From: Fidelibacterota bacterium CG1_02_48_14
Lineage (GTDB): Bacteria; Fidelibacterota; UBA8477
NCBI GenBank assembly: GCA_001872685.1
Contig: MNWS01000226.1
Coordinates: 1-33,743, forward strand
Reading direction: 5' to 3'
Length of the DNA stretch: 33,743 nucleotides
Shown: piece after piece, positions 14,764-32,604 of the stretch
How the letters are laid out: each line of letters starts with the position of its first letter
How positions within the stretch are numbered: the first letter of the stretch is position 1
The notes under the pieces: generated by a model
What the model saw: only the letters and a program-made list of their open reading frames with translations
The model's database searches: none
What the model was told of the DNA's origin: nothing
Program-made: the position numbers and the translations under genes

Positions 14764-17244
14764 TTGAATCATATAAAATTTTTCTATAAATCCGGTGGGC
14801 TGGCAACCCTGTTAATCATCCTAATCGTGGGATTATTGCCGACCCAAACAATCAACGCACAGGATGACAGTAGGATGGGACCCCATGAAGTGGAGTGGCT
14901 TGCTCACCAGGGTGAGGCTGATCCGATTCTGGATTTAACACCCGATGCACCGATTCAACCGCTGGTTTCATTACGCCGGGACCCTTCCCATGTCATTTTT
15001 GGTTATCACCCTTATTGGAATGGGACCTCCTATACCTCCTACAATTATGATTTACTGACTCACCTTGCCTATTTTGGCGTCGAGATGAACAGTTCCGGTC
15101 AAATCACCAATTCCCACTCCTGGCCGGTGACGAGTCTGATAAATCTCGCCCATAGTAATGGTGTGAAAGTGATTCTAACCGTGACCTTGTTTGATAACGC
15201 AGATATTGGGACGCTGGTAGGTAATGCCAGCTATCGACAGGCTGCTATTGATAATCTGATTACCAGGGTCATACAGGGAAATGCCGACGGCGTGAATATT
15301 GATTTTGAATCGGTTCCGGCTGGGTCCAAAACCAATTTTAATATTTTCATCCATGATCTCACCCAGGCTTTCCACGATCAAATCCCAGGATCAGAAACCA
15401 GCATTGCCATGCCATCTGTTGATTGGTCCAGTTCCTATGATTATGAATATTTAAATGAGAACTGCGACGGTCTTATGATCATGGCCTATGCCTATTACTG
15501 GGGTGGCAGTTCGTCGGCCGGACCGGTTGCGCCATTGTACAATGGCGGCATGGCCAGTTATAACATTGATCGGACGGTCAATTCCTACCTGACAGCCACA
15601 TCAAACGATGGCAGCAATATTTTTCTCGGCTTACCATGGTATGGTTACAATTGGCCGGTCTCAAGCACCGCACAAAATGCCACCACTACCGGGACGGGAA
15701 GTTCGATTGTCTATTCGGTCGCAGAACCGGCGGCAAATTCCTACGGCAAGCATTATAACACGGATGTCCACAGCGCCTGGTACAATTATACCGCCAGCGG
15801 TCAGCAGCGTCAGGTTTGGTACGATGACAGCCTGAGTCTGGTCACGAAATACAACTACGCCAAAACCCGGCAACTGGCCGGGATCGGCATTTGGGCATTG
15901 GGTTATGACGGGAATCGTCCCGAAATATGGGGTGGATTAAATGACGCCTTTGGTGCGTCAACGCCACCACTTTCACCAGGCTGGTTTTATGTGAAAAATA
16001 TCGGTGATGGCAATGTATTGGTCCATGCAGCGAACAGCGCTAATGCTGAGAGTTATCAATTATACCGGAGCCAGGATGCTCAAAATTTCGAATTGTTTCG
16101 TGAAGCGCCATCCCCGGCATTTCTGATTGACTCGCTTCCCATTGATACGATCCAATATTTCAAACTGAAAGCCCTCAACACTTTCGGCGCATCCGATTTT
16201 ACTGAAGTCCTGGCCGTCTCGCCATTTGTGGGTCAGTCAGAAGTGCTCATTGTGAATGGCTTTGAGCGCGTTTCCGGCACCACCAATACCTTCGATTTTG
16301 TGAAAGAACACGGACCGGCAATCTTTGCCGCCGGGTACCATTTCGATTCTGCCAGCAATGATGCCATTCCGCCTGATGTCATTTCTTTGACGGATTACGA
16401 TTTTGTTGATTGGATTTCCGGTGAGGAAGCCACCAGCAATACAGCCTTCAGTGGTAGCGAGATGGATGCCATTTCTGTCTATCTGGAAAGCGGCGGTCGT
16501 CTGATTATCTCCGGTTCCGAAATTGGATGGGATTTAGAAGCAGTGGGTGCGCCACAGGAGATTGATTTTTACCATAACTATTTTAAGGCAGATTATTTCG
16601 TAGACGATGCTGGTTCGTACGAAGTTCAGGCTATGGCTTCCGGACTGTTCAACGGCATACCGAATTTTCATTTCGACGATGGCACCCATGGCACCTATGA
16701 TGTTGATTATCCGGATGGAATCAAACCCTACGGTGGCTCAATCTCCAACCTCCATTTTGCAGGAATAGACTACACCGCCAGTGGTGGTGCCGGAATACAG
16801 TATCGGGGTCCATTCGGAACGAGTAATATTGACGGCGGACTGGTTTACCTGTCTTTTGGTTTTGAAACGATCTACCCGGCCAGCGTGCGGGAAAATGTCA
16901 TGAGCCGGATGCTGGAATATCTGGCGCCCGGGGTTTCAATTGAGAACGAGCAGACAACCACGATACCGATTTCGTTCACTCTGGGAAACGCCTACCCGAA
17001 TCCGTTCAATGGCGCGGTATCTGTTCCTTTCACGCTTCATCAATCCGGCCATTTGAATTTTGCAGTGTATGATATTAGAGGCGCGTTGGTTTTCTCAACA
17101 AACGGCATGTATGGGCCGGGAGAAAGTGTGTGGCATTGGAACGGGCAGTCCCAGTCGGGAGCTGGTCTAAGCTCTGGAACCTATTGGATTGTCGCGTGGA
17201 ATGAGATGACGCTGCAACGATCCAAAGTGACATTTCTGAAGTAG
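14764..17244 (+). CDS. Secreted GH18-like glycoside hydrolase with C-terminal sorting/FlgD-Ig-like domain
   Basis: Signal peptide; GH18 catalytic motif DGVNIDFE; C-terminal LGNAYPNPFNGAVSVPFTL...SGTYWIVAWNE. TTG start with upstream AGGAG. Confidence 0.88.
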   Translation: MNHIKFFYKSGGLATLLIILIVGLLPTQTINAQDDSRMGPHEVEWLAHQGEADPILDLTPDAPIQPLVSLRRDPSHVIFGYHPYWNGTSYTSYNYDLLTHLAYFGVEMNSSGQITNSHSWPVTSLINLAHSNGVKVILTVTLFDNADIGTLVGNASYRQAAIDNLITRVIQGNADGVNIDFESVPAGSKTNFNIFIHDLTQAFHDQIPGSETSIAMPSVDWSSSYDYEYLNENCDGLMIMAYAYYWGGSSSAGPVAPLYNGGMASYNIDRTVNSYLTATSNDGSNIFLGLPWYGYNWPVSSTAQNATTTGTGSSIVYSVAEPAANSYGKHYNTDVHSAWYNYTASGQQRQVWYDDSLSLVTKYNYAKTRQLAGIGIWALGYDGNRPEIWGGLNDAFGASTPPLSPGWFYVKNIGDGNVLVHAANSANAESYQLYRSQDAQNFELFREAPSPAFLIDSLPIDTIQYFKLKALNTFGASDFTEVLAVSPFVGQSEVLIVNGFERVSGTTNTFDFVKEHGPAIFAAGYHFDSASNDAIPPDVISLTDYDFVDWISGEEATSNTAFSGSEMDAISVYLESGGRLIISGSEIGWDLEAVGAPQEIDFYHNYFKADYFVDDAGSYEVQAMASGLFNGIPNFHFDDGTHGTYDVDYPDGIKPYGGSISNLHFAGIDYTASGGAGIQYRGPFGTSNIDGGLVYLSFGFETIYPASVRENVMSRMLEYLAPGVSIENEQTTTIPISFTLGNAYPNPFNGAVSVPFTLHQSGHLNFAVYDIRGALVFSTNGMYGPGESVWHWNGQSQSGAGLSSGTYWIVAWNEMTLQRSKVTFLK

Positions 17245-17296
17245 AAGTACCCGTTTCGCGGATGAAAAATTATCAGTCAGGCGGAGAGGAAATTTC

Positions 17297-18637
17297 ATGA
17301 ATCATTCATCAGTCTTTCTGAAATTCAGCGTTGGTCTGAACTTACTGTTGCTATTGGCCTGTACCGGGAATCAGCCGGATGTAAAACCACACGCGCACCA
17401 GCAACAAGAGATGGTCGCAGTCCAGAAACCAATTGAAATTTTACCAGTACTCACGGGAATTGATGTTCTGGAGAGGATTAATTTCGCTCCGATTCAGGGC
17501 AAAACCGTAGCTGTCGTGTGCAACCATACCGCCCTGGATAAGCAGGGTCGGCATTTAGTGGATATTTTGTACGAATCACCGGATGTCACCTTGAAAGCCA
17601 TTTTCGCACCCGAACATGGTTTTCGCGGCGTGACCGAGGGGGGATTTGATATAAATGACTCGCTGGATCAGAAGACCGGCGCCATGATTTACAGCATTTA
17701 TGGTGACATTCGCAAACCGACCGCGCAGATGCTTAATGGTGTTGACATGATTATTTTTGACATTCAGGATGTGGGCGCACGGTTTTACACCTATATCTCC
17801 ACTATGGGGAATGTGATGGAAGCGGGTGCGGAACTCGGCATTCCGGTGATGATTCTTGATCGCCCCAATCCAATTTCTGGTTTTACGGATGGCAATATTC
17901 TGGACCTCAAATTCCAGAGTTTTGTAGGGATGTTTCCAATTCCGATTCAGCACGGCATGACAGTTGGGGAATTGGCTCGAATGATTCAAGGCGAGGGCTG
18001 GATCAATCAAGCCGCCGATTTAGATTTGCGCATCGTGAAAAATGAGGGCTGGAGTCGCGATCTGTTTTTCAACGAAACTGACTTGAAATGGGTTGATCCG
18101 TCACCCAACATGCGCAACCTGAATGAAGCGCTGATTTACCCCGGAATGTGCCTCCTCGAAGCCAATATCTGCGCTGAAGGTCGGGGGACTGACAAGCCTT
18201 TTGAGTGGGTCGGCGCACCGTTCATCGATGGGAAACAATTGGCCACCGCCTTGTACGCCGGCGGCTTGGAAGGTGCTACCGTCGAGCCTATCTCATTTGT
18301 ACCCAGGGATATGCCCGGTCGTGCTGTGAACCCGAAATTTGAAGGCCAAAAAGTTAATGGCATCCAAATCCGGGTGACCGAGCCCATGGAATTTCAGCCG
18401 GTTCAGTTCGGCGTGAAATTCCTGGTAACGGTCAAACGGCTTTATCCCAGAGATTTTAAGTGGGTAAGTGAGAGCCGCGCTGCAAGATTGTGGGGCAGCG
18501 AAACACTGGTGCAGATGATCGCTGCCGGGAAATCTGCGGATGACATTATCGCAAGTTATCAACCGGAACTTGACCAATTCAAACTTAGGCAGCAGCGATA
18601 TTTGCTCTATCCGAGCAGTCGGGCGGGCAATTTATAG
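17297..18637 (+). CDS. DUF1343 lipoprotein, NamZ-like putative exo-N-acetylmuramidase (copy 2)
   Basis: Lipobox-like LLLAC; FAPEHGFRG, FDIQDVGARFYTYISTM, ILDRPNPISGF. Confidence 0.9.
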   Translation: MNHSSVFLKFSVGLNLLLLLACTGNQPDVKPHAHQQQEMVAVQKPIEILPVLTGIDVLERINFAPIQGKTVAVVCNHTALDKQGRHLVDILYESPDVTLKAIFAPEHGFRGVTEGGFDINDSLDQKTGAMIYSIYGDIRKPTAQMLNGVDMIIFDIQDVGARFYTYISTMGNVMEAGAELGIPVMILDRPNPISGFTDGNILDLKFQSFVGMFPIPIQHGMTVGELARMIQGEGWINQAADLDLRIVKNEGWSRDLFFNETDLKWVDPSPNMRNLNEALIYPGMCLLEANICAEGRGTDKPFEWVGAPFIDGKQLATALYAGGLEGATVEPISFVPRDMPGRAVNPKFEGQKVNGIQIRVTEPMEFQPVQFGVKFLVTVKRLYPRDFKWVSESRAARLWGSETLVQMIAAGKSADDIIASYQPELDQFKLRQQRYLLYPSSRAGNL

Positions 18638-19287: not shown

Positions 19288-22200
19288 TCACCAGACATCC
19301 GGCACGGTGTCAAGCACAATCCGGAGTTTACTGGCAAGCGCTTGCACGGTGAATGGTTTTTGGATGAAATTAACGCCGTCATCCAGCACCCCGCGATGCG
19401 CAATGACATTAGCAGGATAGCCTGACATGAAAACGACTTTGATGCGCGGGTACAACTCCTGAACGCTGGTGGAAAACTCACGACCATTCATCTCAGGCAT
19501 CACCACATCTGTCAGTAGCAGATCAATTTTGTGCTGTTTCTCAGTTTCCAATAGCGACAACGCGTCCCGGGGTCTTCCCACTGCAATAACCCGATATCCC
19601 AGACTCGTCAGGATCGCCTTGGTCATTTCAAGAACTTCCCGCTCATCTTCTACAATCAGGATCGTCTCACCCTGGCTGCTACGAACTGTCCCGGAGTCCT
19701 GCAACATCTGTTTAGCGGTCAATCCCTTGAATCGAGGTAAATAAATGGTGAATGTGGTTCCAAAACCGGGTTCGCTGTCCACGGTGATAAAGCCATCGTT
19801 TTGTTTCACTATTCCGTAAACTGTCGCCAGGCCTAACCCTGTTCCCTTACCAACTTCCTTGGTCGTGAAAAATGGTTCAAAAATTTGTTCGGCAGTCGCC
19901 GTATCCATGCCAATACCATTATCACTGACGGAAATGGAGACATAATCACCCGGGCTTGAGCCTGGGTGTTCAGCACAAAATGACTCGTCAGAGACAATGT
20001 TACGGGTAGAAATTTTGATCTGACCCACACCGGAAATGGCATCCCGGGCGTTCACACATAGGTTGGTCAAAATTTGGTCTATCTGTGATGGATCAATTTT
20101 TACCGACCAAATCTCTTCACCGGGATTCCACTCCAGATCAATTTCTTCATTGATCAGCCGGTGTAACATTTCCACCGATTGTTCAATGGCATAGTTCAGT
20201 TCCAGTGACTGTGGGTGAATGGCTTGTTGCCGGGCAAAGGTCAAAAGTTGCCGGGTAATCTCAGCCGAGCGGTAGGTTGCCCGGAGGATGCCCTTTAAAT
20301 CGGCTTCCACTGTTTGTTTCTGTTCCAACCTTTCAAGCGCCATTTCGGCGTGTCCGCTGATGACGCTTAACATGTTGTTATAGTCATGAGCAACACCGCC
20401 AGCCAACCGTCCCACCGCTTCCAACTTTTGTGACTGCGCCAATTGATCCTGGAGTTTATCATGCTCCGCCTCAGCCAGTTTGCGATCAGTGATGTCCTGA
20501 AAAGATCCAATCATGTGGGTACATCGCCCGGTAATACTAAATACCGGGGAGACACTAACCACGCCCGATTTCTGACCAACACGCAGGTTGAAATTTTCTT
20601 CCCAGGTCACGGTCTGTTTTTCCTCAATTGCGCGTTCAAGATTCGCACGGAATTGATTTAGAGAGGCTTGGGGAATGACATTTGCCAGCGTTTGGCCGAG
20701 GACTTCTTCAGAGTGCGCACCGGTCATTTTCAGGAATGCAGGATTGACGGATTCGAACCTGAACCTGGGACCGGCTTCCACCGTCAGAGAGAAAATTCCG
20801 TCTGCTACTGAGCTATAAATCAGATCGAGTTGCTGATTTTGTAGTTGTAATGCTGCTTCAGATTTTTTCCGGGCAGAAATATCCCGGACGATGACCTGCA
20901 CACCCACCTCCCTGTCGAGACTGATCGATGTTGTCGCGACTTCGGCGTCAAAAACCCGTCCCTTGCGTGAGATCATTTTTTCCTCAATGAGGGGGACTTG
21001 TCTTTTGTGTTTTGTAATATTTTCAACCCGTTCTCTCATAAGATGGTGGAAATCGGGATGGATAAGATCCATCACCGGCGTATTTATAAAATCCTTTAGA
21101 TCCGATACTTCAAACAATTTCAGCGCAGCGGCATTGGCATACTGAATGAATCCGTTGATCTGAATGTATAATGCGTCTGGTGATGCCTCTACCAGATTAC
21201 GGAATTTCTCTTCACTCTCCTCTATACGCCGCGCAGCATTCACCTGGGTCGTAATATCGGAAATGACATGTACCGCCCCCGTCAATTCGCCGTCATCACT
21301 CCAAATCGGATCGGCAACAACTCTGAATATCCGGTCGTTCATCTCCATCTCTATGCTTTCGCGTTGATTTGACGCTTGCATTTCTATAAATGGGCAATAA
21401 GAAAGTGGTTCGTCACAAGCATGCACGATATGGTAGCAATAATGAAAATTGATCTCTTGATCGGTTTTGTTAAACAGCTTTTTGAACGCCTCGTTGCTTT
21501 GCTGGATTTTCTGGTCGCTGTCCAGTAAAGCAATGGCATCATCACTGGCATCAAAAGTTTTTGACCAATTATTAGCGAAATTACGAATCCGCGAATCAGC
21601 TCGTTTTTGCGCAATGATGTTCCAGGTGATGTCCCCCAGATAACCAATACTCTCTAAATCGTCCTCCGAATATTCAGTCTCACGATTCCCGATTCCAAAC
21701 ACAGCCACCACATGATCGTTGCGAATAATGGGGATCACCATTTCACGAGTTAACTCGGCGTGTCCTTCGGGCAACCCTTTCTTATTCGGCAGCGATGCAT
21801 AATCATTGTGAATAATGGGTCGTTTTTGTCGGATACTATCCGCCCAAATGCCTGCTGAGGATACGGGATAGTGAATTTGTTCGCCTTCGGCGTGACAATA
21901 GATTGCGCGAGTCTGGGTAGACCACTGTTGCAGCAGAATGGTTTCCTGATCCTCCTCCACAAAATGGTAAAAGCCGATGGGGCTGTCCGTATAGGCGCAC
22001 ATTTCATCCAATGTTTTTACCAATAATTCATCAATGGTGTGTGTGGTGGCGTAATCGTGAAGTAAAACGCGCAGTTGCAGCAACAAATGGGAACGTTGAT
22101 CCTCCGTCCGATCCCGGAAGGAAAGCACCGCACCAATAATTTTACCCGAATTATCAAAAATTGGTGCTGCATTGTCGGTAATGGGAATTTCCCGGCCATC

Positions 22201-23589
22201 GCGAGTCAGGAGTAAAGGATATTCAACGGCAGTGACAGGTTTTTTGTCATCCAGCGCCAGGAGTACAGGATGAGGTGGCGACTCACGTGTGTCCCGGTTA
22301 ATGATTTTGTACACCTCCGTGACTGACTTACCCAGGGCATCCGGTCCTTTCCAGCCCGTAAGCACCTCTGCAGCCGGGTTCATAAATTCAATGAACCCTT
22401 TCGTATCGGTGGAAATCACCCCATCACCAATGGCGTGCATCATCACACTATGGCGTTCTGATTCGGTGCTGTAGGCTAGTTCCGACTCGTAGAGATTTTG
22501 GAAGTGTTTTTTCAGCTTTATTTGCCAGAGCATGAATCCGCCAACGACACCCAACCCAAACAACACCGCAATCAAAACCAGGATAAATCCGGAATGTTTA
22601 TGCCAGTGTGCATAAATTTCGTCCGAATCGATTTTGGAAATCAGGAGCATTTCGGAATTTGGAACCGGTAGGATATAGGCTGTGGTAAGGACATTTCGAT
22701 AATCAAGACCCGTTACAATTCCCCTCTGACCATTGATGGCTTTAACAGCGACGTGTTCTGATTTGGCAACATCCATTTTAAAAGTAAGTGCTGTCTTGGG
22801 ACGGTGTCGCAAATCATTCAGATATTCCGCTTTTTGGCTGGATTTCCGTATGAGCAGCGTTTCGGCAGATTTGCTGGATGTTGGCCAGGATTGGATCAGT
22901 GGATAGAGAAATTGCTCAGGATTCAGGACAATAACCAGTGCGCCCATGAGATTAGAATCTGTGTCAATGTCTTGATACACCGGCGCAACAACACCCAACT
23001 CGGGTGAAAGCGTATCCATATCCTGTAAATGCAGCGTGATAATTTCCGGTCGGTGATTTTGCAGTACTGCATGGAAAGCGGTGCGGAAGGCATTGTCGTT
23101 CTCCGTGTGACCATTCAAACTGAGAAGTTGCTCTCCAACGGAAGACATCAATACGACATCAATGGATTCATTTTGTCTGACGATACTCTTGAAATGGAGT
23201 AGCAGATCGCCACGGTTGGCGGCAGAAGGATCGCCCATATATCGCAACAAGCTCTGTCTTAATGGCGAATCAGCGGCGTAATCGGTCGCGTCTTCCATCT
23301 GATCTTCAATCCAAAGCGAAATTTGGCTGACTTTAATCTGGGCGATGGATGCCAGTTCATCTTCTGCATTTTTTTGCATCATCCTGGCTTGTGCGTGGTA
23401 AAAAGCGAACCCGCCCGTTACAATTCCCGCCAGAATGAGCAGGAATATCGTGCGCAGCCATCCCGGAAAGACCTGCCTTTGGATTTGATTGATTCTGGAA
23501 ATGGTTACCGTCAAACTTTCCCCCCGGGGTCGGGCGATCTTCAAACCCGCCTGAATGAACCTGATGCGGCGACTTGAATCTAAGACCAA
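19288..23589 (-). CDS. Hybrid sensor histidine kinase (TM/extracytoplasmic sensor, PAS, GAF, PAS x3, HisKA, HATPase, receiver)
   Basis: [16 protein letters not shown]-box, [11 protein letters not shown]-box, [21 protein letters not shown], then receiver ILIVEDE...[13 protein letters not shown]...FMSGYP...QKPF. Two N-terminal TM helices flank an external sensor domain. Confidence 0.95.
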
Positions 23590-24291: not shown

Positions 24292-24696
24292 ATGAATCAA
24301 ACAGAAAAAACGTTTGCAGATTATAAAGGGACTGAAAATGTTCTGGTTGTGGAGGACGAAGAGATGACCAGAAATATGGTAACAGAGATATTGGAAGGAT
24401 TGGGCTACACAGTTCTGAATGCTCCGAATGCCGAGACTGCCATCGAAATTTCTGACGATTTTGAGGACGATATTCACCTCCTGCTCTCGGATGTCATCAT
24501 GCCACTCATGAATGGTAAACAATTGTCTAATCAACTAGCCATGTCCCGCCCCACCATGAAAGTGCTGTTTATGTCCGGCTATACCGACAACATGCTGGCG
24601 CCTTACGGCATTCTCGAGGAAAATATTCACTTCCTGCAAAAGCCATTTTCTGTCAAGATTCTGACCCAAAAAGTACGCGAGACGCTTGATAGCTAG
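24292..24696 (+). CDS. Stand-alone response regulator receiver protein
   Basis: VLVVEDEEMTRN, LLLSDVIMPLMNGKQ, VLFMSGYTDN, FLQKPFS; no output domain. Confidence 0.92.
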   Translation: MNQTEKTFADYKGTENVLVVEDEEMTRNMVTEILEGLGYTVLNAPNAETAIEISDDFEDDIHLLLSDVIMPLMNGKQLSNQLAMSRPTMKVLFMSGYTDNMLAPYGILEENIHFLQKPFSVKILTQKVRETLDS

Positions 24697-24879: not shown

Positions 24880-27800
24880 ATGGCTCATGCGAATAAATTT
24901 GGCACTTTCAGCGGCGTTTTCACACCCGCGATCCTGACAATTCTGGGCGTCATCATGTACATGCGTCTGCCGTCAATCGTGGGTCAGGTTGGTCTGATTG
25001 CCACCCTGGGTATTATCCTCTTGGCGCACGTCATTTCGGTGACAACCGGACTCAGCGTCTCCTCTATTGCAACGGATAAAAAGGTGAAAGCCGGCGGCAC
25101 CTATTACATGATTTCCCGGAGTTTGGGATTGCCCATTGGTGGTACGCTTGGTTTAGCGCTCTTCGTCGGTCTCTCCTTCAGTGTCAGTTTGTACATCATC
25201 GGATTTTCTGAAAGCTTCATCAATTTTTGGGGTTGGAGCATCAATAAGAATACGATTCGACTGGTGGGTTCCGGTGTTTTGGTTCTGGTCACGACCGTAA
25301 CCTTTATCAGTACCGCTCTGGCGATCAAAACCCAGTATTTCATCATGGCTGCAATTGTTCTGTCATTGGCATCGATATTTCTGGGGTCACACGGAACCAC
25401 ATCAGTGCCGCACATTGCCCTGCCAACGACCGCGGTACCACTTGTGGTTCTTTTCGCGATTTACTTTCCGGCGGTCACCGGTTTTGAAGCCGGTGTTTCC
25501 ATGTCCGGTGATCTGAAAGATCCGAAACGCTCAATCCCAATCGGCACGATCACCGCTATTTCGGTTGGGCTGGTTGTCTATGTTACCATGGCAATCTTTT
25601 TTGCTTACCGTGTAGACCCGGACGAGTTGGTAAACAATCCAAACGTGTTGTTGGAGATTTCACTTTTTCCCCCACTGGTTCTGGCGGGCATTTGGGGCGC
25701 TACGATTTCATCGGCATTGGGAAGTATTCTGGGGGCACCGCGCATTCTCCAGGCGATTTCAGCCGATCGCATTACACCCCGGATTTTTGCCACCGGTGTT
25801 GGGAAGGAAAACGAACCCCGGAACGCACTGCTCCTGACTTTCATGATCGCTGAAGTCGGAATCTTAATCGGAGAATTGGATGTTATCGCCCGGGTTGTGA
25901 CCATGTTTTTCATCATGACCTATGGATTTTTGAATACCAGTTGCGCGATTGAAAGCTGGGCTAGTCCTGATTTCCGGCCCGATTTTAAAATCCCAAAAAC
26001 GGTGAGCATTATTGGCGCATTAGCAGCGTTTTTGGTGATGATTCAATTGGACTTTGTGGCCATGATCGGCGCAACATTGATTCTGGGAGCGCTCTTTTTT
26101 TACCTCAAACGCCGTGAATTGACGCTGGAATCCGGTGATACCTGGGAGGGTGTCTGGTCATCACTCGTACGAACTGCACTGCACCGCTTGAGCAAAGGTG
26201 AGGTTCATCAGCGTAACTGGCGACCCAATCTGATCTTATTCAGTGGCGGTAAAGGAGCTCGACCACATCTGGTTGAATTGGGACGGTGGTTGGTCGCCCG
26301 GCGTGGCATATTGTCCGATTTTCAGCTCATCGAAAATCCCAAAGTTTCGAGTCTGGTGATCCGGAACCGTAAGGAAATTGAGCTCGCAAATGCCGCGATT
26401 CCGGAAGAGGAGAATTTTACGGGTCGCTTCGTCCGCCGGGCTGAAACGAACGACATCTATGCCACGATGCAGGAAATCGTCAAATTCTATGGTTTTGCCG
26501 GGGTGGAGCCGAATTCTGTTTTATTGGGCTGGGGGCGGAATAGTCGTGAACCAAAAAAGTTCGTGGACGTTTTGGCGACCTTGCAACAGATGGATTATAA
26601 TGTTTTACTGCTGGATCATGATGATGTACGCGGCTTCGGTGACCACGCCAGCGTTGACATCTGGTGGCGGGGTGGCGGAAATAATATTAGTCTGGCGTTA
26701 GCGCTCATTCGTTTTCTGGCTTCAAGTGACGATTGGCGGGAAGCCAACATCCGACTTCTCATCGTGAATGATGATGAAAGTGCGTTGCGGGAAACCATTC
26801 TCAAACATGCCAACAACATTTTGGAAGAGTACCGCCTGGACGCCGATGTCAAAGTCATCAATAATGCCATTGAGCAGAAAAATTTCCAGGAAATTATTCG
26901 GGTTGAGTCGGCCCATTCAGATTTTACAATCATCGGAATCCCACCGCTGAACACTCGGGATCCACTGAGTTATGTGGATTTCGTGAATCAGATCGCCAAC
27001 GACCTGGGATCGGTTCTCTTGATCCATGCCTCGTCATTTTTTGAAGAATTGTATGTGGGCATTAATCAGGAAAGTACCGCCGCGCCGGATGAAATCAACA
27101 TTCTGGCGATGGAATCGTCCAACCTGCCGGTGGTTGTTCCGCCCCGGGCTGAGTTGACAGCCAGCGCCATTGAACGGCTCACCGCGGCTCTGGACCAAAT
27201 GAACATCAGGTTGACCGATCAGCATCTGTACAAGGTCATTTCACAACAACTGGCTTTGATCGGGCAATTCCAGGATTTAACTGAACGAAGTTTTGATGCC
27301 TTAGAGCGCAATTTCACCAAAGATGCCAGGCTTCGTAATCGTCGGGCTTTGCTCCGGGTAAACAGCGATTTTCTTTTCCAGGCTCAACGGCTGCTCACCG
27401 AATTCCGTCAGACGGATTTGCCGCTTCAGAAAGCAGCTTTGACGGATGGTGTCGAACATCACCGCAGCCAGATAAAAGAGCTGATTGCAGCCCAGCCCGG
27501 ATCCATCACCCTTGCCTTTACCCGAAGTGAGTACAGGAGCGCAAAGGAAAGCGGTTACCTGATGCGGCAGTATCAATTCTGGAAAAGATTCAGCGCTAAA
27601 CTTTCACGCAAAAATGTCATTTCTCACCAGGTAAAATTCCGGGAATTGGTTGCCGGGCAACTCGCCAACAAATACGATCCGATGTTGTTGAGCGTCCTTG
27701 AGCGATTCGGCATTTACAGCTATCAAACCGTTGCCGACCTCCAAAAGGCGATCAGTTTAGTCCGGGAAAGCTTTGGCATATTGGAAAATCGCATTCTTGC

Positions 27801-30051
27801 GGGGGAAGGTTTCCCCATCGAACAATTGTATGCTCAGCGCAAGCAGGTTTTGGCGGGGACGGAGAGAATTGCAGAGGTTCTAAAAGAACGTCAGGCGCAA
27901 CTGCGGCATATTCTGCTGAAAGAGACCCGGGAAATTCTCATACAACTCAGCCATACGGCCGATCATATAGATTCGAATCATTGGGTTCCGAAGGAATTCA
28001 AACCCAATAAGCAGTCCATGACGGTTTCTGACACTCTCACGGAATTGTCGGAACGCTGGTTCGGGAATCAGGCTGATTTCCTGGAAATGGCCGTCCTGGA
28101 TGTCCAATTATTAGCGTTACAAAATCGGCTGGGAACGATTGTCGAGCGGATGAAAGATGACGTAACCCTTCGCATCCAAAATACGGTTTTGGGTGAGTTG
28201 GCCGGTTTGCGGGACGAGCTGAATACCCTCAAAGCGAGCGCATCGAAAAATTCACCGGTTCGAAACAACCATTTCACCTACGATGCTCCGGTCCCGCTGG
28301 ACCCCATCGCTGTCATGAACGAATTGTTAGTGGAAGTACATGCCGCTACCAGGGATTTACCCGAGAATGTTGATGTCATCAGCGAAGCGGCCATGAATGA
28401 TCTGGAAGCTCATCAGTTCGAGGAACAGGAGGTTCTGACAATCGCTTTGCGACGCCTGGCTGAATACATTGTGGAATCAGAATTCCTGGGACCCCTCCAG
28501 GAACGGATGAATCAATTACCAAATATTTTTCAGGGAGCACAGACTGTCGCTCAGGATGTCTTGCGCTTGACGACATTCGATTTGATTGAGACCGAAAGCA
28601 ATGAGACGCTCACCGATTTCGCACAGCATGAGACGCGGCAGAAAATTCTCATCAACGGTGATAATCGACTCGCAGAGGAACTAACCCGGATACAGCAGGT
28701 ACAGGATGATTTGGGAACCTTCATTCAGCAGCAGTTCAGGAAAACCAAAGATCAATTGAATCCGTATAGTATTGTTCATTCAGCGGACACTTACCAGCAA
28801 TACATTCGCGGCCGCCGAACCCGGGGTGTGGTCACACGTTTTCAGCGCACCCGCCTGCAAGTGGAGCGCTTCACCACTGAAAAATTTGTGCAATTGCTGT
28901 ATCGGCGGAGTGAAGGCGTTCTTTTCGCGCGCCGACTCCAGGCCGACAAACAATCGTCACAAACGATTACTGATAAAATGCTGAATTTGTTGGATCAGGT
29001 GACACCGAAGCCGGAAATCGTTGAGAATTTGCCTTTTTACTACAAACAACTCTTTTTGGGCAAACCGACTATAACGAACGATTTTTGGATAGGTCGCGAG
29101 CACGAATTAGAGCTCGCCGATAAGGCGGTTGGCCGATTCAACCGGGGCTATGGTGGTGCTCTGTTCATTATTGGTGAAGAGCACATGGGCAAATCGGCGT
29201 TGGCACAATTCATCGCCTCCCGGCATTATGAAAAGCATCGTATTTTCACCATCAACCCGCCGGACAGCGGTAGTACATCGCTGGAAGAATTCACCCGGCG
29301 GCTGCAACAAGCGGTTGAGATGACCAGTGGACCGGATGAAATATTGGGTCAGTTGACCAATAGGAATGTGGTGGTTTTTAATGATGTTGAATTGTGGTGG
29401 GAGCGGAGTGATTCAGGTTGGGCGGTGTTGCAGGAGCTACTAAATCTTATTCGACAATACAGTCGCCAAACACTGATGATCCTGAACCTGAATCAGTACA
29501 CCTACAATTTTCTGGCACCCATGTGTGACTTTCAGGAATTAGCCTTAAGTGTCATCGAATGTGAGCCCTATGACGCTGAGGAGCTGAAAAATATCATTCT
29601 GTTACGTCATCGTTCCACGGGTCTGCGATTCGAATGGGATGGCATTGAGGATGCAGATATTTCCGAATGGAAGTTGGCTAAGTTGTTCACGGGACTCTTT
29701 GACTATTCCCGGGGCAATGTAGGTGCTGCCTTGCGTGCCTGGATAGCGGCTATTCATAAAAATACCAAGGGGAAACTAATTCTAAAATTGCGGCCCTATC
29801 CGGATACCAGCGCTCTGCGTGGACTGGATGTGGAATCAATCACGCTAATGCTCCAATTCGTCCTGCATAAGCGCATGAATCGAGAGAAAATTGCCCGCAT
29901 TACGAGGTGGTCAACAGATCAGATTGAGAATCAAATCCAGTTCCTGCAAAACACCGGATTGATAACGACCCAGGCGCAGGAAGTCCTGATTATCAACCCC
30001 TACCTGGAGTCTTTCCTCATTCGTAATCTGAAAGAGCGGGGGTACCTGTAA
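24880..30051 (+). CDS. SLC12/cation-chloride-cotransporter-like transporter fused to a long helical region, a STAND/AAA-like ATPase and a winged-helix-like tail (1723 aa)
   Basis: Single uninterrupted ORF. N-terminus [19 protein letters not shown] and [41 protein letters not shown] and [16 protein letters not shown] match SLC12 C-terminal domain hallmarks; then WIGREHEL, Walker A [9 protein letters not shown], Walker B-like VVVFNDVEL. Confidence 0.9.
   Translation: [1723 protein letters not shown]
29086..29700 (+). other. STAND/AAA-like NTPase domain inside the 1723-aa fusion
   Basis: WIGREHEL at 29086-29109, Walker A [9 protein letters not shown] at 29173-29199, Walker B-like [10 protein letters not shown] at 29365-29394. 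The right boundary is approximate. Confidence 0.75.
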
Positions 30052-30785
30052 TGGATATGCTCTCCTTTGATGTCTCTGAATATCTCATCGTGAAATATGT
30101 GCTGCTGGGGTTGTTACTGGTGGGTGTATTGATTGGACTGCGGAAGGGTTTGCATCTGATCCAACTGAAGCCAACGACGCGTGAACGCATTGATCGCTCG
30201 TTGCCTCTGGTGGAAGCACTGATGGGATTGATTTTCATCGTCCTCGCGGCTCACTCGATTTTTCAAAACCAACCAACTTATTTCATGGTGCTATTTAGCG
30301 CGATTCTTGTCATTCTGGTTTGGAGCTTTTGGTTCGCCATTCAGGATTTTGTCAGTGGTCTGATTTTGAAATGGGAGGACACTTACACGGTAGGTGATCT
30401 GCTCACAGTCGAATCGGAGACGGGTCGGGTAATCCGGGTCGGGTACCGTTCCTTGATGATTGAAACAGCGGATGGTCAACGCATCAAGTTCCCCTATTCG
30501 CATTTGACCCGAACCCAGGTTCACAAGCTGGATGCAGATGAAGTGGTCTGGGCACACACATTCCAAATGGCGGTTCCATTAATGGATGCTCCCGAAGTAA
30601 TGATGAAGCGAATCATTCTGGCTGCGACTAATGTCGTTTGGTCGGCGGTCAATCGGGTTCCACAGGTCGTCTTCCAGGGGGTTCAGAATGGTGTGCAACT
30701 ATTTGAAATTACAGTATATGTGCTGGATCCTAACCGCCGCAGTACCATCGAGTCGCGTATACGGGAATCGCTGGGTAACACATAA
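30051..30785 (+). CDS. MscS-like mechanosensitive channel family protein
   Basis: TM helices followed by FAIQDFVSGLILKWEDTYTVGDLLTVESETGRVIRVGYRSLMIETADGQRIKFPYSHL, the MscS pore/beta-domain pattern. The start overlaps the upstream stop (TAATG). Confidence 0.87.
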   Translation: MDMLSFDVSEYLIVKYVLLGLLLVGVLIGLRKGLHLIQLKPTTRERIDRSLPLVEALMGLIFIVLAAHSIFQNQPTYFMVLFSAILVILVWSFWFAIQDFVSGLILKWEDTYTVGDLLTVESETGRVIRVGYRSLMIETADGQRIKFPYSHLTRTQVHKLDADEVVWAHTFQMAVPLMDAPEVMMKRIILAATNVVWSAVNRVPQVVFQGVQNGVQLFEITVYVLDPNRRSTIESRIRESLGNT

Positions 30786-30863: not shown

Positions 30864-31322
30864 TTATTTATTTTTAAAATCGGTCTTTTCTGGCGAGAGT
30901 CTAAAGACGACCGGAATGGTAATCACAGCCTCAACGGGTTGGTTGTGCAGCATCGCCGGATTCCAGGTAACTTTCTCGATTGCCGCCACAGCAGCTTCAT
31001 TCAATCCACCTTCCGGGATACCCCTGACCACCTGCGATTGAACGGCTGCGCCAGTAATGGAAATTTTTGTCTGAACAATGACGGTTCCTTGAATGCCGGC
31101 TTTTCTCGCCAAATCCGGATATTGAACCGCTCTTTGAATCGCACCGTAACCACCCAATGGCTCCGGTGGCGTATCGAAGTTCACTGCGATGCTATCTTCC
31201 ATTGTCTTGGCAAGTGAATGATCCGACTCCGAATGCGCGGTGAGGCGATCATCCTTACCCATGTTACAACTCACAACCAATGCCAATACAACGACCATTC
31301 CCATGAGCATTTTATGATACAT
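30864..31322 (-). CDS. Putative internally initiated TonB-domain lipoprotein, in frame within the M56-TonB ORF (152 aa)
   Basis: On the minus strand GGAGGAGGG-ACTTAAG-ATG (SD complement at 31330-31338, ATG at 31322-31320) starts MYHKMLMGMVVVLALVVSCNMGKDD, which carries a lipobox-like LVVSC. Confidence 0.5.
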   Translation of the reverse strand: MYHKMLMGMVVVLALVVSCNMGKDDRLTAHSESDHSLAKTMEDSIAVNFDTPPEPLGGYGAIQRAVQYPDLARKAGIQGTVIVQTKISITGAAVQSQVVRGIPEGGLNEAAVAAIEKVTWNPAMLHNQPVEAVITIPVVFRLSPEKTDFKNK

Positions 31323-32216
31323 CTTAAGTCCCTCCTCCAAATCTGATTGTTTGCGGACGATATATTCAAACCGCCTTACCAGGCTGTGTTTGGTGAAAAA
31401 AAATCCACTGGCTAACACGGCATGGTGGACATGATTGGTGGATCGTTCAAGCTGATTCAGCAAATTCCGACCGTAGCCTTTGCGATCCGCATTAGTCGCG
31501 CGGATGGCAGCGTCGTCACAAATGCGCTCGCGTTCCAAATCCATCTGGTCATTCAACAACCAAATGGCAGGATGAAACCAATAGATCATTTTAACGATGG
31601 CTTGCAGATGAATCACCGCGAGATCCAGTCGTCTGATGTGAGCCATTTCATGGGCGATGACGCTGAGTATTTCGGAATCTGACCAATTTACAACGGTGTC
31701 TGGCAGGTAAATCCGGGGTCTTAATAATCCCAGTGAGAATGGATTTTGAACGTCCGGCGAAATCAGGATGAAGGGCGTTCGGGAAAGCTTCTGACTGGTG
31801 AGAAAGGCGTTGATGCGAGTCGGGACGATCCAAGGTGTTGCATCTCCAAGGGTCTTTCGGAATCGGATGTCATTCACCACCAATCTGACCAGGAAAAACA
31901 TCGCACCACCTAACCACAGACTGACGATCAATAGTGCTATAGTTATCGTTGAGTTACTGCCACCGCCTAAAGTAACCTGGGGAAGTTGGGTGATAAAATT
32001 CGCTGACTGACGCTGAATGGTTGTATTTACAAGTTCTATTGGCAGGTTGAAGGGCAACAGTGCCTTAAGAAGCAAAATACTCCATAATCCGTAAGCAAAT
32101 TCAGGATGCGAATTTCTGCTGATTCTTGAAATTGGCCAGATAAGGAGTGTCAGAAATGCCAGTTGCCAGGATGATTGCCAAAGCATGGATAACACAGTGG
32201 AGAAAAAATCAACCAT
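30864..32216 (-). CDS. M56 family (BlaR1-like) membrane metallopeptidase with C-terminal TonB-like domain
   Basis: HEXXH in VIAHEMAHIRRLDL; four predicted TM helices; C-terminal YPDLARKAGIQGTVIVQTKIS...ITIPVVFRL is TonB_C-like. Overlaps the BlaI-like gene by 8 bp. Confidence 0.92.
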   Translation of the reverse strand: MVDFFSTVLSMLWQSSWQLAFLTLLIWPISRISRNSHPEFAYGLWSILLLKALLPFNLPIELVNTTIQRQSANFITQLPQVTLGGGSNSTITIALLIVSLWLGGAMFFLVRLVVNDIRFRKTLGDATPWIVPTRINAFLTSQKLSRTPFILISPDVQNPFSLGLLRPRIYLPDTVVNWSDSEILSVIAHEMAHIRRLDLAVIHLQAIVKMIYWFHPAIWLLNDQMDLERERICDDAAIRATNADRKGYGRNLLNQLERSTNHVHHAVLASGFFFTKHSLVRRFEYIVRKQSDLEEGLKMYHKMLMGMVVVLALVVSCNMGKDDRLTAHSESDHSLAKTMEDSIAVNFDTPPEPLGGYGAIQRAVQYPDLARKAGIQGTVIVQTKISITGAAVQSQVVRGIPEGGLNEAAVAAIEKVTWNPAMLHNQPVEAVITIPVVFRLSPEKTDFKNK

Positions 32217-32604
32217 TTTGATCCTCCGCTTCCTTCAGCATTTGCCGGATGACTAGAATATCCTCCGGTTGCAAATTGATATTAGGCAGAAGAAAAGCGG
32301 CCAGCCGGCTGGCAGATCCACCAAAAACCTGGTTTACGAAGTGGCTTGTCGCGCCTTCGACGACGCTGGAACGGTTCACCGTGGCGGTATAGAAATTCAC
32401 CAGCCCAAGTTTTTCCTTTTGCAGGTAACCCTTTTCCACGAGACGCTCCAAATAGGTCTGAATGGTTGTATAAGCGCGCCGGTGTTCAACCGGTAAAGCC
32501 TCCATGACCTCTCTGGCGGTCTGTCGACTCTTCTCCCAAATTCGATTCATGATAGTCCACTCGAATTTACTCAACGGTTCAAGATTTTTCTGCCTGTGGC
32601 CCAT
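32209..32604 (-). CDS. BlaI/MecI/CopY family transcriptional repressor
   Basis: LSKFEWTIMNRIWEKSRQTAREVMEAL...AYTTIQTYLERLVEKGYLQKEK winged-helix pattern. Confidence 0.93.
   Translation of the reverse strand: MGHRQKNLEPLSKFEWTIMNRIWEKSRQTAREVMEALPVEHRRAYTTIQTYLERLVEKGYLQKEKLGLVNFYTATVNRSSVVEGATSHFVNQVFGGSASRLAAFLLPNINLQPEDILVIRQMLKEAEDQNG

Follow-up and report, generated by a model that had tools for sequence, protein, structure and literature searches.

A bacterial cation-chloride cotransporter of the CCC/SLC12 family, fused in one polypeptide to an AAA+ ATPase and encoded in overlap with an MscS-family gene, was identified in the window, the whole 33,743-nucleotide stretch of DNA analysed here. 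The fusion, its MscS-family partner and its relatives point to an undescribed bacterial coupling of salt uptake and release. This reading draws on the architecture of the fusion, the conservation of its ion-site and Walker A residues, the pairing of the ATPase with MscS genes and the repeated fusion of the ATPase to ion-transport domains, all of which were observed directly. The window is part of a 3.0 Mb MAG whose genome is approximately 89 % complete, and same-genus records belong to Candidatus Neomarinimicrobiota, the phylum used in the counts below.

Architecture and conservation of the fusion gene

The fusion gene occupies positions 24880..30051 of the forward strand as a single ORF of 1,723 codons that starts at ATG and is free of internal stops, so that the open frame described in the initial annotation is intact. 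Its domain order is CCC/SLC12 with the matching cytosolic domain, a long-helix region, P-loop ATPase and winged-helix tail. The contig comes from a MAG and the ATPase half exists elsewhere as a free-standing gene, both of which would fit an assembly or annotation artefact that merged two separate genes. However, single-frame ORFs of 1,701–1,724 aa with identical domain order were found in eight genomes, which belong to at least four phyla. Two further genomes of the same genus carry the fusion at approximately 70 % identity, and a member of another family of Neomarinimicrobiota (G236) carries it as a 1,707-aa ORF with 44 % identity overall. Outside this phylum, profile searches detected the fusion in G347, G390, G321 and G397, again as stop-free ORFs of 1,701–1,724 aa. 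A frame break between the transporter and the ATPase was looked for and was absent from all eight independent genomes, which have an identical junction.

The eight fusions formed a single clade in both the CCC tree and the ATPase tree (100/100 in each), most simply read as one fusion that arose once and then spread or was anciently inherited. Within the genus, dN/dS was approximately 0.03–0.15 for every domain and for the junction, wherever both rates were computable, indicating purifying selection on all parts of the fusion, junction included. The CCC membrane domain was the most conserved part in this comparison. Because the single-frame ORFs recur in eight genomes and dN/dS is low, the fusion is not a product of chance or misassembly; artefactual joining was ruled out on these grounds, together with the single clades, and its probability is negligible. 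The distribution is patchy, with the ATPase half as query finding matches in 8 of 245 Neomarinimicrobiota genomes.

The transmembrane domain (residues ~1–415; 24880..26124, forward strand) and the cytosolic C-terminal domain (residues ~416–730; 26125..27069, forward strand) both belong to the SLC12/CCC family by homology, in agreement with the first description of this gene. Pfam AA_permease matched residues 13–450 with 154 bits (cut-off 24.6), and a PDB sequence search matched KCC and NKCC chains (best E ~1e-79), with KCC chain matches continuing through residue 661. In the G236 orthologue the SLC12 Pfam domain was above its cut-off. The NCBIfam model for K-Cl cotransporters, TIGR00930, scored 391 bits, under its curated cut-off of 953. 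In the tree, the CCC half of the fusion grouped with bacterial CCCs. Stand-alone bacterial relatives are approximately 730 aa long and share both domains and the Na+ and K+ site residues with the fusion, whereas the fusion adds approximately 990 C-terminal residues, including the AAA+ ATPase.

In NKCC1, the K+ site consists of Tyr383, Pro496 and Thr499 and the Na+ site of Ala610, Ser613 and Ser614, in each case together with main-chain atoms (PMC7035313). The fusion residues at the K+ site (Y105, P197 and T200) and the Na+ site (A274, S277 and S278) are invariant across 8/8 fusions and 30 stand-alone CCCs. The latter three lie in the TM8 motif ATISS (25699..25713, forward strand), which aligns to ATLSS of NKCC1 (SLC12A2), while the positions of the main-chain contributors Asn298 and Trp300 are T20 and L22 in the fusion. 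In the alignments, the serine pair is matched by NKCC1 but not by KCC, so Na+ dependence is predicted. From these conserved ion-site residues the CCC half looks functional, transport itself being a prediction. The window's own genome, approximately 89 % complete, yielded no second CCC. Among the plasmid matches listed for the full-length protein, the CCC part alone was covered, and no plasmid-borne homologues of the stand-alone ATPase were found. A CCC on a Bernardetia plasmid (L049:5929-8708) is followed 2 nt on by a gene annotated as a TRAP transporter small permease subunit.

The helix-rich stretch that had been noted between transporter and ATPase is approximately 650 residues of long helices (residues ~731–1383; 27070..29028, forward strand) in an AlphaFold2 model with a mean pLDDT of 79 and a pTM of 0.68. 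A fold search of residues 731–1383 against the PDB gave no match with E <0.001, and a sequence search of the helical and ATPase half against the PDB gave no match. A Pfam OPA1_C match at residues 1233–1285 (17.9 bits, below cut-off) was dismissed as coiled-coil noise.

Residues ~1384–1723 (29029..30048, forward strand) form a P-loop AAA+ module with a C-terminal winged helix. A P-loop NTPase after residue 1400 is supported both by profile and by fold: Pfam AAA_16 matched residues 1403–1476 with 27.8 bits, below its cut-off of 32.6, relatives of the ATPase exceed the cut-offs of AAA_22, AAA or nSTAND1, and Foldseek on the AlphaFold2 model returned ORC2/Cdc6 AAA+ structures as best matches (E 2.7e-7, probability 1.00). 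The model of residues 731–1723 has a mean pLDDT of 66.9 and is weak in parts, so only its ATPase match was used; on this model, the ATPase appears nearest by fold to ORC/Cdc6-type AAA+ proteins. Like these (1w5t, 2qby, 1fnn), it has an AAA+ core followed by a winged helix in the fold match. However, its identity to the PDB members is 10–16 %, its Walker B is atypical, and it is attached to a transporter and paired with MscS in a gene context that offers no hint of a role at replication origins. None of the profile libraries searched names this ATPase family. The ATPase had been called STAND/AAA-like, and of this label the AAA+ part stands while STAND membership was not established. nSTAND1 exceeded its cut-off in G008 only (31.5 versus 27.1) and was sub-threshold elsewhere. 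The C-terminal superstructure-forming sensor repeats of STAND proteins are absent from the fusion, which stops at the winged helix, and its helical region precedes the NTPase, unlike STAND repeats, which are placed after it.

In the family alignment, the Walker A motif GEEHMGKS spans residues 1432–1439 (29173..29196, forward strand) and the Walker-B-like motif VVVFND residues 1497–1502 (29368..29385, forward strand), in the same polypeptide as the transporter, as had been reported. The Walker A Lys1438 is retained in 8/8 CCC fusions; in three stand-alone ATPases this Lys is replaced by Arg (GxxGSGR[ST]; L042:6545-9565, L043:3472-6489 and L037:215-2797). The first acidic position of Walker B is N, D, E or H across the fusions. 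Since this motif is atypical and degenerate, hydrolysis may be weak or absent.

The MscS-family partner and the surrounding genes

The initial annotation overlooked an MscS-family gene of 244 aa that overlaps the end of the fusion (30051..30785, forward strand), and with it the pairing seen across the family. The gene contains the MS_channel_2nd beta domain (PF00924, 44 bits versus a cut-off of 20.2) and shares 1 nt with the fusion stop codon (TAATG), so the two genes are probably translationally coupled. The same 1-nt overlap was present in all four Neomarinimicrobiota fusions; elsewhere the spacing was a 4-nt overlap in G347 and G397 and a 145-nt gap in G321, and the two genes were divergent in G390.

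No feature of the ATPase family is more constant than its pairing with MscS. Twenty-eight ATPase loci were examined, one of which (G062) lay at a contig end, and 26 of the 27 informative loci had an adjacent MscS gene; the remaining locus, on contig 169 of G347, had no MscS neighbour in the stretch examined. Twenty-five of the 26 neighbours were directly downstream on the same strand, at −23 to +145 nt, and 12 of the 26 had not contributed to the MscS profile. The window's own genome has just three MscS-family genes, which puts chance adjacency at an estimated ~0.2 % per locus. The ATPase loci share descent, so the 27 do not count as independent trials, yet they span at least six phyla; genome sampling followed kinship rather than a random scheme. 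In contrast, an MscS-like gene was present in the short flanks of 2/27 stand-alone CCC loci of Neomarinimicrobiota.

The partners of the CCC fusions share the PF00924 beta domain with the MscS family but differ in the pore helix. In the alignment, the pore helix encoded in the window reads ILVILVWSFWFAIQDFVSGL where canonical relatives show ASAGIAVGFASQDILKNIFGG, with bulky residues in place of the Gly/Ala pattern of TM3. MscS proteins at CCC-fusion loci are short (201–256 aa), have a bulky, aromatic-rich pore helix and are without the PN motif of canonical relatives, whereas the partners of free-standing ATPases mostly retain the canonical Gly/Ala pore-helix pattern. This suggests that the MscS partner of CCC fusions may not be a normal channel.

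A receiver-only response regulator (24292..24696, forward strand; PF00072, 65 bits) lies just upstream of the fusion and neighbours it in 3/3 genomes of the genus (loci L045 and L046 for the other two). Next to the other fusions, the larger ORFs did not include such a gene, which is therefore an uncertain part of the system. Near it, the reverse strand (19288-23589) encodes a large hybrid histidine kinase that contains several PAS domains, a GAF and a receiver domain and matches Cache weakly. Positions 30864-32604, between mscS and a DUF72 gene, encode a BlaR1-type M56 peptidase with a C-terminal TonB domain and a penicillinase-repressor-type regulator; in both same-genus genomes a DUF72-like gene directly follows mscS. 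At 14764-18637, a GH18 glycosidase gene with a secretion tail adjoins a gene for the exo-beta-N-acetylmuramidase NamZ.

Other architectures of the ATPase family

The ATPase also occurs alone and in other fusions. In the stand-alone class, an ATPase of approximately 1,000 aa is followed by an MscS gene. In class K (G420, G422, G423, G426 and G454), the ATPase is preceded by an S1–S4 voltage-sensor-like region with no pore; the Ion_trans profile is covered at positions 3–111 of 241, and the membrane region has a weak PDB match to KCNQ1. The exchanger class consists of a Na_H_Exchanger domain fused to the ATPase (85 bits in G655 and 77 bits in G659) within operons of the order trkA – trkH – exchanger/ATPase – mscS (L132:1990-9789 in G655 and L133:6489-14209 in G659). 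These represent two genera of another phylum, and trkA and trkH were assigned by Pfam in G655 and by position and sequence similarity in G659. A third ATPase-family gene of G347, on contig 169 (L100:6729-11363), is fused to a membrane domain of approximately 12 TM segments; an exchanger had been suspected by eye, and no Pfam match to this domain was found. A gyrase-A-like gene follows it. The class K cluster of G422 (L102:3760-12956), likewise those at L103, L106 and L107, opens with RimK, an AstE/AspA-like gene, the voltage-sensor-like/ATPase fusion and mscS, and continues beyond mscS with a Castor/Pollux-like channel and two further mscS-like genes. In G008 (L042), similar-looking RimK, deacylase and mscS-like genes lie upstream of a stand-alone ATPase.

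Animal CCC transporters set cell volume under kinase control, and the ATPase of the fusion had been interpreted as a replacement for that control. Its occurrence alone, or fused to an exchanger or a voltage-sensor-like domain, shows that it is not a CCC-specific replacement.

Three further accounts of the family were weighed. The near-universal MscS pairing, maintained while the N-terminal domain varies (CCC, exchanger, voltage-sensor-like or none), could mean that the ATPase works for the MscS-type channel, with the CCC no more than a membrane tether or stoichiometry keeper and the two activities uncoupled. However, the identifiable domains fused to the ATPase are all related to ion transport and are not arbitrary membrane domains, the CCC ion sites are invariant and its membrane domain is the best-conserved part, so this account is improbable. 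Still less probable is an anti-phage or cell-death module in which a STAND-like NTPase fires the MscS-type pore as an effector. The nSTAND1 and NB-ARC profile similarity of relatives and the patchy distribution would suit such a module, but the pair is kept, with overlapping sets of neighbours (response regulator and DUF72 gene), in 3/3 genomes of the genus and the exchanger-type members are located in trkA–trkH potassium operons. A known defence system was rejected on the absence of a PADLOC match at 0.01 and on the osmotic and ion context.

The main rival to a nucleotide switch is a transceptor, in which the CCC would be a sensor and the helical/ATPase part would read its ion occupancy or flux and signal to the MscS-type channel or, via the winged helix, to DNA. 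A precedent is the transceptor CbrA, which joins an SLC5 transporter to a histidine kinase (PMC13022988, PMC7096432). CbrA shares with the fusion the combination of a secondary transporter and a signalling module in one polypeptide; it differs in its transporter family and in acting from kinase to response regulator, as opposed to the AAA+ switch and channel partner proposed here. In class K, the pore-less voltage-sensor-like domain that takes the place of the CCC resembles an input and not a transporter. The presence of a winged-helix tail also fits, but ORC and STAND NTPases likewise contain winged helices with a structural role, and any DNA target would be hypothetical. Moreover, ATPases without a membrane domain still pair with MscS, so transporter input is not obligatory. 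A transceptor is thus an unlikely reading, if one to be taken seriously.

Proposed coupling of salt uptake and release

The preferred reading is a two-gene osmotic ion-flux module, made up of the CCC–AAA+ fusion and a divergent MscS-type channel subunit. The first gene would encode a Na+-dependent cation-chloride cotransporter, a long helical region and an ORC/Cdc6-like AAA+ nucleotide switch, whose nucleotide state would be set by ATP/ADP, ion concentration or crowding. The switch would bind the MscS-type channel at its cytosolic part and the transporter at its cytosolic domain, so that a single element would choose between salt uptake through the CCC and salt release through MscS and thereby set cell volume. 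We infer the physical complex, the nucleotide gating, the direction of control and the actual substrates in this scheme. A nucleotide switch that acts on both the MscS-type channel and an ion transporter, and so couples uptake to release, has in our estimate an even chance of being the correct explanation. Since one ATPase family is repeatedly fused to unrelated ion-transport domains, the coupling idea is directly testable.

All parts of the module come from known superfamilies, and cytosolic subunits that control ion transport through nucleotides are a known kind of regulator. TrkA closes TrkH with ADP and opens it with ATP (PMC6987127), which establishes that such control exists, using a different nucleotide-binding fold. 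The inferred likeness to TrkH–TrkA and KtrAB K+ uptake lies in a cytosolic nucleotide-binding subunit gating an ion-transport protein (PMC6987127); TrkA and KtrA differ in being RCK (Rossmann-type) rings and not AAA+ P-loops, and they have neither an MscS partner nor a CCC fusion. The view that no bacterial CCC of this architecture had been described agrees with a limited search of the open-access literature. In open-access papers, no description was found of an AAA+ family paired with MscS and fused to three unrelated ion-transport domains, or of a dedicated nucleotide-dependent regulator of MscS-type channels, and these papers yielded no experiment on a family member.

More broadly, the ATPase could be central to a class of osmotic ion machines, nucleotide-switched, spread over several phyla and so far undescribed, as an AAA+ family dedicated to gating MscS-type channels and repeatedly recombined with CCC, exchanger and voltage-sensor-like inputs or outputs, placing uptake and mechanosensitive release under one ATP-dependent element. 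We put this forward tentatively, at a little short of an even chance. MscS-type channels act as a release valve in cell-volume physiology, and in the window the gene that overlaps an MscS-type channel gene encodes a bacterial CCC with a putative nucleotide switch of its own. Were this switch to control transporter and channel alike, ATP status would be linked to salt uptake and mechanosensitive release in one complex, and MscS-type channels would gain a dedicated nucleotide-dependent regulator. If the coupling is real, AAA+/MscS/transporter systems would form a class of their own.
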